From positions 1 through 23,724 of IMG/VR virus record IMGVR_UViG_3300046313_000316: a stretch of 23,724 nucleotides of DNA. The stretch is one strand, 5' to 3'. Of this stretch, positions 9,427 through 22,885 are shown in pieces. The DNA is from a virus. A program made the translations under genes and the position numbers. The notes under the pieces were generated by a model. The model was given only the letters and a program-made list of their open reading frames with translations, searched no databases and was not told the origin of the DNA. Each line of letters opens with the position of its first letter. The stretch's first letter is position 1.

Positions 9427-9669
9427 TCATTTACTAGGCGATAGTGCAGTATTCAAGTACTCCAGCACATAATCAAGTACACAAGCACAACCATCTAGTG
9501 CAGCTTTCAGCATTTGAATAGGCCAGATAAACACCAATCGAAGCGGCACAAATAACCACTCCAAAATAGTACGTCCTTTGAAATAATCAAAGTATTCATT
9601 ACTGTACTTTCGCATACCTAGCTTTGTTTGTAGGAGTGCATTAAGTAAGTTATTAAGTTCTTCTAGCAT
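9427..9669 (-). CDS. Small hydrophobic protein (80 aa), possibly membrane-bound
   Basis: Unrecognised. Residues ~33-55 (TILEWLFVPLRLVFIWPIQMLKA) form an amphipathic or membrane-inserting helix, followed by ALDGCACVLDYVLEYLNTAL. AAAGGA lies 9 bases upstream. The start overlaps the stop of the 49-aa gene (ATGCTAG). It could be a small inner-membrane protein; a holin is possible but unsupported, as it lies far from the hydrolase. Confidence 0.6.
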   Translation of the reverse strand: MLEELNNLLNALLQTKLGMRKYSNEYFDYFKGRTILEWLFVPLRLVFIWPIQMLKAALDGCACVLDYVLEYLNTALSPSK

Positions 9670-9812: not shown

Positions 9813-9844
9813 ATCTATATCCTTTGTAGTTTAATCCTTATACT

Positions 9845-10054
9845 TTATTTCAATCGAAAGAACTTAAGAACTTTAGTCAGTTTGCTTGGTTCGTATAACA
9901 CACCACCAGAGCAAGCACCTCTACGCATCATAAAGCAATTCATACCGTGATTACCGCCAGTTACTTCATTTTGCCCATTAACGGGATGATAGCAATCAAA
10001 CATTGATTCATGCTTGCAGTTCTTGCAATATTTATTAGTATTTGTACTACTCAT
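9845..10054 (-). CDS. Small Cys-rich (putative zinc) phage protein
   Basis: A 69-residue protein with C-x2-C near the N terminus (YCKNCKHES), CYHP next, then a Cys/Met-rich middle (MNCFMMRRGACSGGVLYEP). This pattern (CK.CKH...C.HP...........M.R..G.C..G...EP) is a common phage and bacterial small orphan family that probably binds a metal. Function unknown. No clear ribosome site before the ATG, which lies 10 bases after the previous gene's stop. Confidence 0.75.
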   Translation of the reverse strand: MSSTNTNKYCKNCKHESMFDCYHPVNGQNEVTGGNHGMNCFMMRRGACSGGVLYEPSKLTKVLKFFRLK

Positions 10055-21005: not shown

Positions 21006-21671
21006 ATGAAAAAGATCGAAGGCACTTTGGTATATGTCCGCATGAATGAGCCACAAAAAGCATATGTTAAACCCGGTACACCTCAGAAACCAGATGAGTG
21101 GAAAGCATCAGTTGTAGTAACTGACAAATCTGTAATTAAAGCATATCGTCAGTTCGCTAAAGAGTTAGACACGCTAGTATCCGTAAAGGAAATAGAAGCA
21201 GGTGATTTTGAAGCTGAGTTCAAGTGCCCACTACCAGAAGGTGCAGGTGATGAGGTATGGGTTGTTACCCTACGTAAATCAACTGAACTAGGTAAGACAG
21301 GTGAGCCAGTACCTGATAAGTATAAACCTCGTGTATATGAGCAAGTTCAAACAGATAGTGGCACTATCCGTAAGGATATTACATACACCAAAGAAGTAGG
21401 TAATGGTTCTAAAGGTGCTTTGAGTATTGAAGTATTCACTAAGACTAATGGTACTGGTACGTTGTATCTAAAGAATTGCTTGGTTACTGACTTGGTTGAA
21501 TACGAGCGCAAAAGTCTAGAAAATGATGGTGGTGAATTTGATGACGAGGATGACGCTCCAGCAGCTAAATCAGCGCCAGCTAAGAAAGCTGCTACGACCT
21601 CTAAAGCACCAGCAAAAGCCAAGGCTAAAGTGCAGGATGATTTTGCTGATGATGAGTCGCTTCCGTTTTGA
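21006..21671 (+). CDS. Single-stranded DNA-binding protein, T7 gp2.5-like
   Basis: A 221-residue protein. Residues ~1-165 have the beta-rich OB-fold character of phage SSBs (KKIEGTLVYVRMNEPQKAYV, KASVVVTDKSVIKAYRQF, WVVTLRKSTELGKTGEPVPDKYKPRVYEQV, GSKGALSIEVFTKTNGTGTLYLKNCLVTDLVEYE). A flexible Ala/Lys linker (AAKSAPAKKAATTSKAPAKA) follows, then an acidic tip DDFADDESLPF, like bacterial SSB tails that bind partner proteins. It coats single strands at the fork. AAAGGAACACACA precedes the ATG. Preceded by a TTGAAA-TACAAT promoter. Confidence 0.85.
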   Translation: MKKIEGTLVYVRMNEPQKAYVKPGTPQKPDEWKASVVVTDKSVIKAYRQFAKELDTLVSVKEIEAGDFEAEFKCPLPEGAGDEVWVVTLRKSTELGKTGEPVPDKYKPRVYEQVQTDSGTIRKDITYTKEVGNGSKGALSIEVFTKTNGTGTLYLKNCLVTDLVEYERKSLENDGGEFDDEDDAPAAKSAPAKKAATTSKAPAKAKAKVQDDFADDESLPF

Positions 21672-21673
21672 TG

Positions 21674-21679
21674 TATAAT
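21674..21679 (+). promoter_or_regulatory. -10 box (TATAAT) ahead of the structured non-coding stretch
   Basis: TGATGTATAATAAATTAGG begins at the SSB stop. It is the same TGTATAAT core as the left-arm cassette and the promoters at 22894 and 23380. It would transcribe the whole non-coding region and then the nucleotidyltransferase gene. Confidence 0.55.
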
Positions 21680-21680
21680 A

Positions 21681-21787
21681 AATTAGGTGTCCTGCTACCT
21701 TAATTGCAGAATTAAAAAGGCCTTTGCTGCGTTTGGGTTATTCAGGTTAGAAACAAGCTGACTGCTAGGAATAGACTAGCAAACTTT
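21681..21787 (+). ncRNA. Hairpin-rich leader of the non-coding stretch
   Basis: AATTAGGT (21681-21688) and ACCTTAATT (21697-21705) pair with one bulge. GCAG and CTGC (21706-21709, 21727-21730) close a loop with the palindrome AAAGGCCTTT. TGCTAG (21763-21768) and CTAGCA (21776-21781) form a 6-bp stem with a 7-base loop. No reading frame is convincing. Part of the same transcript as the tRNA-like element. Confidence 0.45.
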
Positions 21788-21789
21788 AT

Positions 21790-21877
21790 ATGCGGTGTCC
21801 CTTTACGATTCTTCTAAAATCGTGTCATTAAATAAAAGGATGAACGACAAGAGGTTTGATTCCTCCACCGCATTCCA
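21790..21877 (+). tRNA. tRNA-Arg(UCU)-like RNA without a D arm
   Basis: 88 bases. ATGCGGT (21790-21796) pairs perfectly with ACCGCAT (21867-21873), followed by T73 and an encoded CCA (21875-21877). Anticodon arm: CGATT, loop CTTCTAA, AATCG (21806-21822), with T33 and anticodon TCT, identical in the loop to normal tRNA-Arg(UCU). T arm: GAGG, TTTGATT, CCTC (21851-21865) with an A-C mismatch at the base. Only nine bases lie between the acceptor and anticodon stems, so there is no D arm. The 27-base variable region can pair TGTC with GACA. It may be a degraded tRNA, a decoy, or a tmRNA-like form. Confidence 0.5.
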
Positions 21878-21880
21878 TAA

Positions 21881-22015
21881 ATAATAGATAGTTGCACTAG
21901 GTACTTCTGCTGGTTAGTACTAATAAGCACTGCGGAACTGAGTATTCAGCGTTAAATATCGAAGCGCAGTTTTAAGGAGTTGTGTCTCCACTAACCTAGT
22001 GCAACTATCTATTAT
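21881..22015 (+). ncRNA. 135-base structured element closed by a perfect 22-bp inverted repeat
   Basis: Bases 21881-21902 and 21994-22015 are exact reverse complements (22 bp; core TAGTTGCACTAGGT). Inside lie TGCT...AGCA around a TTAGTACTAA palindrome (21908-21929), CTGCG...CGCAG (21930-21934, 21965-21969) enclosing CTGAGTATTCAG, and GGAG-TTGTGT-CTCC (21976-21989). This gives a multi-branch cloverleaf on a long stem. No T run follows, so it is not a simple terminator. An inverted-repeat mobile element is an alternative, but I see no target-site duplication. Confidence 0.6.
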
Positions 22016-22048
22016 CGTAATATCAAAATCAAATATAAAGGATTAATC

Positions 22049-22885
22049 TTGAAAAATATTCTAATTGGTTCTCGTGCATTGGATTACTGGATGGACTTAG
22101 GTATAGCACGTCCTGATAGCGATTGGGATGTAATTAGTGCAGAACCAATTGAAGGTACTGAATGGCACAAACCATCTATCCTGAATAACTCAAGTATTGA
22201 GCAGTACATTACAGCAGAGCACACAACAAAGCTAAATGGCGAGGTGTTATATGTTCCTCCACTGTGGGTACTGGCAGCTATCAAACGAAGCCACCTGCAC
22301 CGTTCTGAGGGCTTTGGTAAGCACATTACGCATTATCATAAGTACTTGCATAAGTACACCAAAGTACAGCATTCAATTCAGTACCCATTAGGTACTAACA
22401 TATCATCTTTATATCAACCCTTCATGCAAGAGCGCAGGAGACTTACGGAAATTGAGTACCCCCAGAGATACCCAAAACTAGATGTTACTGTAGAAGAGTT
22501 CTTTGATGATGCTGTACCTAAAAGGTTCAACCATGATTACTTGCATGAGTTAGTGCAGTACAATTCAAGTCCTATGTATAAAGCAATGCAGCGTGATAGT
22601 TCCAGAGCTATGTGCCACGAGGACTTATGGTTGGGGTTTACACATCAGCAGAAATTGCAATGCGTAGCAGAAGAAGTACAGGTGATTGCTTTAGAGAGAT
22701 TTATTATTCCAAGTAAAGGTAAATTCATGCTTGGGTTAGCATATAATAAAGCACTTGAAAAAGTATGCACTACTTTATGCTCTGGTTGGTTTAGGGAGTT
22801 CGCTATTGATAACTACCCAGAGCTATTGGATATGCTTGATAAAGAAAGATTAATTAAAGTGCTAAAGGTACTTCAAGTAATCTAA
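22049..22885 (+). CDS. Nucleotidyltransferase-fold protein
   Basis: A 278-residue protein with the Pol-beta nucleotidyltransferase signature at its very start: IGSRALDYW (Gly7-Ser8) then PDSDWDVI (Asp25 and Asp27), the metal-binding GS...DxD motif. Such enzymes add nucleotides to RNA, proteins or small molecules. The TTG start (AAAGGATTAATC before it) must be right, as the next Met, at residue 15, would remove the GS motif. Residues ~65-110 include VLYVPPLWVLAAIKRSHLHR; the rest is helical with no HEPN partner seen. It lies directly downstream of the tRNA-like and inverted-repeat RNAs. The substrate is unknown. Confidence 0.75.
   Translation: MKNILIGSRALDYWMDLGIARPDSDWDVISAEPIEGTEWHKPSILNNSSIEQYITAEHTTKLNGEVLYVPPLWVLAAIKRSHLHRSEGFGKHITHYHKYLHKYTKVQHSIQYPLGTNISSLYQPFMQERRRLTEIEYPQRYPKLDVTVEEFFDDAVPKRFNHDYLHELVQYNSSPMYKAMQRDSSRAMCHEDLWLGFTHQQKLQCVAEEVQVIALERFIIPSKGKFMLGLAYNKALEKVCTTLCSGWFREFAIDNYPELLDMLDKERLIKVLKVLQVI

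Follow-up and report, generated by a model that had tools for sequence, protein, structure and literature searches.

The phage element described here is very probably a functional tRNA-Arg that reads AGA and whose chain runs in a rearranged order. Its secondary structure and the conservation of that structure were shown by covariation. The element is one of about 90 distinct elements of a transposed-D design from diverse phages, which fall into two types (64 of type A and 26 of type B). A working decoder of AGA is its most likely role, for which charging with arginine is predicted.

The element at 21,790–21,877 and its neighbourhood

The window, i.e. the whole stretch of 23,724 nucleotides that was analyzed, is an IMG/VR phage fragment with a primase-helicase and a protein matching DNA polymerase. 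The features of the element and its surroundings are listed in Table 1. The perfect acceptor stem, the CTTCTAA loop on a 5-bp stem, the T arm and the encoded CCA noticed in an earlier sequence-only reading were all present, and the parse upheld the assignment as a phage tRNA-Arg(UCU) with encoded CCA and a very unusual D region. The acceptor pairing ATGCGGT/ACCGCAT is indeed perfect, and with the 7 bp described the T arm reads AGAGG-TTTGATT-CCTCC. A better parse adds G21797-C21866 to the acceptor, which then has 8 bp, and leaves the T stem with 4 bp. The 9-base linker (GTCCCTTTA) and the 27-base variable region were of the lengths given. They are, however, no loose spacers, since CCTTT pairs with AAAGG and TGTC with GACA. 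The element is not D-armless as had been claimed, because the linker pairs with the variable region as a D-stem around the anticodon arm, and this helix is kept by compensatory changes across many phages.

Table 1: Coordinates of the tRNA element and of neighbouring features in the window.
Feature	Position	Strand	Basis or remark
Gp2.5-like single-strand-binding protein	21006-21671		
Noncoding island holding the tRNA element	21672-22048		between Gp2.5-like and DUF7275 genes
Upstream conserved hairpin motif TGACTGCTAGGAATAGACTAGCA	21759..21781	+	also found unchanged in seven IMG/VR contigs and Acinetobacter phages
Complete gene for a tRNA-Arg(UCU) of type B transposed-D architecture, with encoded CCA	21790..21877	+	model R2 75.4 bits, E 4.6e-18
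Acceptor stem 5' strand ATGCGGTG, 8 bp with G8	21790..21797	+	partner strand 21866-21873
Linker D-stem strand CCTTT	21800..21804	+	partner AAAGG 21835-21839
Anticodon arm CGATT-CTTCTAA-AATCG	21806..21822	+	UCU anticodon 21813-21815; helix covaries
Helix P 5' strand TGTC, immediately 3' of anticodon stem	21823..21826	+	partner GACA 21846-21849
Relocated D-stem strand AAAGG	21835..21839	+	pairing with CCTTT, model R2, covariation
D-loop-like ATGAAC	21840..21845	+	model-fitted type B alignment
Helix P 3' strand GACA	21846..21849	+	covariation of helix P
T arm, 4-bp stem GAGG/CCTC, loop TTTGATT	21851..21865	+	parse and covariation
Acceptor 3' strand CACCGCAT, discriminator T, CCA	21866..21877	+	sequence parse
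Downstream structured RNA, perfect 22-bp closing stem	21881..22015	+	syntenic homologue in Curvibacter phage P26059A
DUF7275 protein	22049-22885		

The element thus has the acceptor stem, discriminator and 3' CCA of a tRNA, a 5-bp anticodon stem with a 7-nt loop carrying U33, and a near-consensus T arm (loop TTTGATT versus TTCGATT in 23 of the 26 type B elements). It departs from a canonical tRNA in having no D arm between the acceptor and anticodon stems; linker and variable region form the D-stem instead. Only 1 of 200 shuffled sequences folded at least as stably. Model R2, a covariance model of type B trained on ten other phages with the window excluded, recognized the element (Table 1). 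This excluded a chance structure and bore out the earlier judgement that such features would hardly arise by chance. ARAGORN, one of the detectors proposed as a check, found neither a tRNA nor a tmRNA in the window, and Rfam gave no match above threshold for the element, the best sub-threshold match being tRNA-Sec with 25.2 bits (gathering threshold 47, E 0.009). Random drift of the stems at homologous loci, named beforehand as refuting evidence, was not what the alignments contained; compensatory changes were seen instead.

The equivalent neighbourhood is occupied by a type B element in the window, a type A element in Limnohabitans phage DC31 and an ordinary tRNA-Arg(UCU) in Curvibacter phage P26059A, where the latter stands in the slot of the window element and the downstream hairpin is shared. 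The DC31 element precedes a DUF7275-type gene; here too the linker is short and the variable region long, and the sequence reads GCGAGTG TACCGGA ACGCT CTTCTAA AGCGT AGTACCGTAATGGAGTCAAT GGGGG TTCGAAT CCCTC CACTCGC ACCA. Synteny was also compared with L014, which among distinct relatives in IMG/VR is the closest. No island was seen there, though the start of the match is followed about 1.7 kb further downstream by an ordinary tRNA-Arg(UCU).

Several other structured RNAs were observed. In the P26059A homologue of the downstream RNA (L002 3998-4180) the stem is kept by compensatory changes and internal segments are conserved. More RNA elements with long closing stems follow the tRNA-Arg of this phage (L002 4190-4800), one of which ARAGORN called a tRNA-Pyl(CUA) with a 99-nt body. 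The 23-nt hairpin motif TGACTGNTAGGAATAGACTANCA is conserved intergenically in diverse phage contigs (L003-L009, and L023 at 9441-9463 and 9831-9853), and Acinetobacter phage BS46 carries a compensatory variant (GCTAG/CTAGC versus GATAG/CTATC). This hairpin is weakly terminator-like and gave no Rfam match in the window. In BS46 (L001 3099-3180) the motif is followed by a tRNA-like element, GCGGAG...CTCCGC-TCCA, which has a T-arm-like segment and gave no standard anticodon arm parse. A further tRNA-like element in DC31 (L019 4234-4340) combines an 8-bp acceptor stem and CCA with two T-arm-like GGTTCGATTCC segments. In viral contigs, permuted two-piece tmRNA genes occur close to distant relatives of the DUF7275 neighbour (L016, L017, L018).

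Architecture of the two types

In the ordinary chain order the acceptor strand is followed by positions 8-9, the 5' strand of the D-stem with the D-loop (10-21), positions 22-25, the anticodon arm, the variable loop and the T arm. The transposed order is read as acceptor, 8-9, 22-26, anticodon arm, 44-45, 10-21, 48, T arm. The segment 10-21 then lies on the 3' side of the anticodon arm, and the D-stem closes across that arm.

Type A elements have the linker U8 A9 N CGG N and a variable region ending in CCG-UAA(N)YGGA...U48, on acceptor and T stems of 7 and 5 bp. From 36 type A sequences aligned with MAFFT, RNAalifold recovered the acceptor, linker/variable, anticodon and T stems de novo, with two-sided changes at 17 of 19 pairs; in the linker/variable helix all 3 of 3 pairs showed such compensatory changes. 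Paired cells amounted to 98.2% versus 65% in shuffled and 38-47% in slid alignments. Linker and variable region were complementary in 47 of 57 elements versus 18 when permuted, a comparison which, as all counts and permutation statistics given here, treats the elements as independent despite shared ancestry. The pairings include CGG/CCG, CUC/GAG, CGC/GCG, CCC/GGG, CAG/CUG, CAC/GUG and CUU/AAG. The type A linker corresponds to canonical positions 8, 9 and 22-26. The variable insert is equivalent to 10-21, which places the 5' strand of the D-stem and the D-loop between positions 45 and 48. The displaced D-stem of type A is a nested helix.

U8, A9, A14, G18, G19, the T-loop TTC and C56 were invariant in the 64 distinct type A elements, an invariance that is partly built in for U-A and GG because the type A parse required them. 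Positions 15, 20 and 48 had been left free, and the 15-48 pair covaries (A-U in 57 and G-C in 4 of the 64). The tertiary-core signature, i.e. U8-A14, 15-48 and G18/G19 with the T loop, was accordingly found in type A; in type B it could be mapped only in part. The pattern is as would be expected if the relocated segment still serves as D-loop.

Because the variable region of type B was not aligned correctly by MAFFT, this type was tested by explicit parsing and on a model-fitted alignment (alignments A4-A6 are fitted to the models). Among 27 distinct rows the pair between positions 8 and 65 was G-C in 24 and C-G in 2. G8 pairs with C65 and the acceptor and T stems of type B are therefore 8/4. 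Five linker bases pair with five bases of the variable region: besides CCTTT/AAAGG of the window the pairings CCCAC/GTGGG, CCCTC/GAGGG, CCGAC/GTTGG, CCTCC/GGAGG and CCTAC/GTAGG occur, and all 9 of 9 distinct ones were complementary versus 1.8 expected when permuted. A second helix, P, is formed by TGTC/GACA in the window and by TAGC/GCTG, TGGC/GCCA, TACTT/AAGTG or TCAC/GTGG elsewhere. Helix P flanks the insert, and D-stem and P therefore cross as a pseudoknot, which sits on the 8-bp acceptor and 4-bp T stem. With this pseudoknot written in, 96.9% of the cells pair and two-sided changes occur at 21 of 26 pairs. Helix P is the weakest type B helix, with 83.7% paired and weaker covariation.

The D-stem strand of type B is followed by AAGGA, with G18, G19 and A20, and in the window by ATGAA, with G18, A19 and A20. 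One TCT element (L184) has GGT instead of GGA. The window element alone combines U56 in the T loop with A at mapped position 19, while its relatives have G19 with C56. Replacement of G19-C56 by A19-U56 is possible, this single case being only suggestive. A point against the reading as a working tRNA-Arg is the discriminator: the window element and 12 of the 26 elements of type B have U73, where arginine tRNAs usually carry A or G.

Distribution and arginine identity

Viral contigs were scanned with pattern 33, which demands the anticodon loop of the element followed at long distance by a T loop, and the matches were parsed. Two further patterns (39 and 40) were independent of the anticodon and fixed the D-loop motif, and named phages were searched by BLAST. 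A canonical-parse filter removed most ordinary tRNAs whose D arm had been read as an anticodon arm. A type B query at E 1e-5 matched 338 phage records, and in 329 the match covered at least 80% of the query; the genera were Vibrio (304), Acinetobacter (29), Aeromonas, Escherichia and Salmonella. A first type A query retrieved 231 records, from Escherichia, Salmonella, Klebsiella and other phages, and a second one 15, from Pseudomonas and Limnohabitans phages. Phages of the genus Felixounavirus that grow on E. coli MG1655, such as heid, garuso and mio, are among those with type A matches. Parsing yielded elements in PAK_P2, phiPsa397, KARL-1, PG07, AhSzw-1, Arash, Av-05, LPML1, SSBI34, SOVA965, Va1 and CRR8, and the models called further ones in REP9, Riker and phi92. 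None of the named-phage elements is annotated as tRNA-Arg, two records listing tRNA-OTHER, and ARAGORN detected none of those checked. Of the elements checked against the Rfam tRNA model, the three of type A were caught (37.5-44 bits) and none of type B.

In 84,980 species genomes the type B pattern had two matches, only one of which fits the model; the contig concerned also has a C4 antisense RNA of the phage P1/P4 type. The same single genome was the only one with type B among 274 genomes of one class, for which few candidates were scored per genome, and the type B query had no match in 5,426 E. coli genomes. On this limited evidence the transposed-D class looks essentially viral. HNH endonuclease genes adjoin the transposed tRNA in some named phages (L174, L175, L181, L182, L184, L188). 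This association is weak, with 11 of 93 transposed-D elements versus 26 of 534 ordinary tRNAs.

In type A 61 of 64 elements and in type B 25 of 26 have arginine anticodons, mostly UCU; the share of UCU (and likewise of GGA) is partly set by the search because the patterns fixed these motifs. Rare non-arginine anticodons are GUA in type B and UAU in type A (L060 3908-3997, L066 2416-2495, L133, L150). A20 and C35 are identity bases for the E. coli ArgRS. Position 20 is A in all 61 type A elements with an arginine anticodon and in none of the three with Ile(UAU), which have U, U and G, as ArgRS identity predicts. The window element has A at mapped position 20 and C35 within its UCU anticodon. 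CCA is present in most members of the class.

No ordinary tRNA-Arg(UCU) was found by ARAGORN in AhSzw-1, PG07, Av-05, Arash, phiPsa397, DC31 and a 40.7-kb part of REP9, phages in which it called 6 to about 34 ordinary tRNAs and in each of which the models found a transposed gene. AhSzw-1 carries UCU and CCU transposed versions side by side. In REP9 the transposed gene, annotated as tRNA-OTHER, is flanked by tRNA-Ile(GAT) and tRNA-Ser(TGA), and the related phage Sf14 lists Arg_TCT at this slot (PMC12482277). These data fit a decoding tRNA that can take the place of ordinary tRNA-Arg(UCU) or give way to it. A point against is that AGA makes up only about 20% of the arginine codons in the window.

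Function, alternative explanations and relation to known tRNAs

A decoding tRNA is favoured because the gene is the sole copy in tRNA-rich phages, is an orthologous replacement of the ordinary gene and conserves an ArgRS identity base. In the proposed mechanism the T loop would still meet G18-G19, and the ArgRS A20, in the relocated loop, so that L shape, charging and decoding would be kept. Tertiary contacts, arginine charging by the host ArgRS and use in translation are thus what the sequences suggest. A decoy or regulatory tRNA-like RNA outside translation, compatible with the unusual architecture and with the other structured RNAs around the element in the window and in P26059A, is improbable given the conservation of A20 with arginine anticodons, the CCA of most members, the sole-copy status and the orthologous replacement of ordinary tRNA-Arg(UCU). 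Decay of an ordinary tRNA after loss of its D arm, considered in the sequence-only reading, agrees with the rejection of the window element by ARAGORN. Each helix is nevertheless intact and covaries in dozens of phages; decay was ruled out by this covariation and conservation and retains hardly any probability. Equally remote is kinship with tRNA-Sec or tmRNA, the latter also raised in that reading. The top sub-threshold Rfam match, the 8-bp acceptor with the long variable region and the permuted tmRNA genes near some distant relatives of the neighbouring gene point that way, but the anticodon is UCU, not UCA, in a CTTCTAA loop, the score lies under the gathering threshold, the alignment with tRNA-Sec skips the D-arm positions, and model R2 assigns the element to type B. 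ARAGORN called no tmRNA, and no Rfam tmRNA model matched in the window.

A different matter is why such a tRNA would be kept. That a translation-competent transposed-D tRNA-Arg serves to evade host tRNA-targeting defences or modification enzymes seems rather doubtful. Phage tRNAs have been proposed or shown to counter tRNA-depleting defences (PMC10264068, PMC11555353), and a Septu system is reported to cleave the variable loop of tRNA-Tyr (PMC13096335); the class is, moreover, overwhelmingly arginine and apparently overwhelmingly viral. On the other hand, no defence system was linked to transposed-D genes, the equivalent slots of relatives contain ordinary tRNA-Arg(UCU), and the anticodon loop is the plain consensus CTTCTAA. 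The proposal of a large phage class with a rearranged core that is charged, used on the ribosome and selected for escaping host tRNA-targeting immunity is, taken as a whole, likewise unlikely.

The canonical tRNA-Arg(UCU) of P26059A (L002:3921-3996) shares with the transposed-D class the acceptor, anticodon and T arms, the CCA, the genomic slot and the G18-G19, A20, U8-A14 and 15-48 signatures. Its D-stem 5' strand and D-loop precede the anticodon arm, whereas in the transposed-D class they follow it. The transposed-D tRNA would depart from a canonical tRNA only in this D-arm order and would work as a tRNA. To our knowledge, the cloverleaf arm order is treated as universal, and it is built into ARAGORN and standard tRNA models. 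As far as is known, the segments of circularly permuted tRNA genes are rejoined into a standard tRNA. These genes likewise have segments in non-standard order (PMC3978253), whereas in the transposed-D class the CCA-ended chain itself would have an altered order. Metazoan mitochondrial D-armless tRNA-Ser (PMC4013460) has a similarly short acceptor-anticodon linker, but the transposed-D class has a D-stem, a GG-bearing D-loop and a long variable region; the presence of the D-stem led us to reject a D-armless mitochondrial-type tRNA. A review of non-canonical tRNAs (PMC7609411) covers, in the section consulted, tRNA-Sec, 8/4 and 9/3 allo-tRNAs, tRNA-Pyl and mitochondrial tRNAs, and that section contains no relocated D half-arm. 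Type B shares the 8-bp acceptor, 4-bp T stem and long variable region with the allo-tRNAs and tRNA-Sec. The latter two are Ser/Sec-like and have their D arm in the ordinary form, and the stems of type A are 7/5. We found no description of a transposed-D tRNA in the open-access literature, to which the search was confined, subscription papers and preprints lying outside it.

For phage tRNA inventories the finding means a correction, since the phages examined do carry the tRNA-Arg(UCU) that seemed to be absent. The tertiary-contact signature is kept and the chain order changed in hundreds of phage records, including phages that grow on laboratory E. coli. Transposed-D genes would let one ask of ArgRS, RNase P, modification enzymes and the ribosome whether the chain order is required or the fold suffices. 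If the class is indeed charged and used on the ribosome, the chain order of tRNA is not fixed, and, if read rightly, the supposedly universal tRNA shape can be wired in another order.
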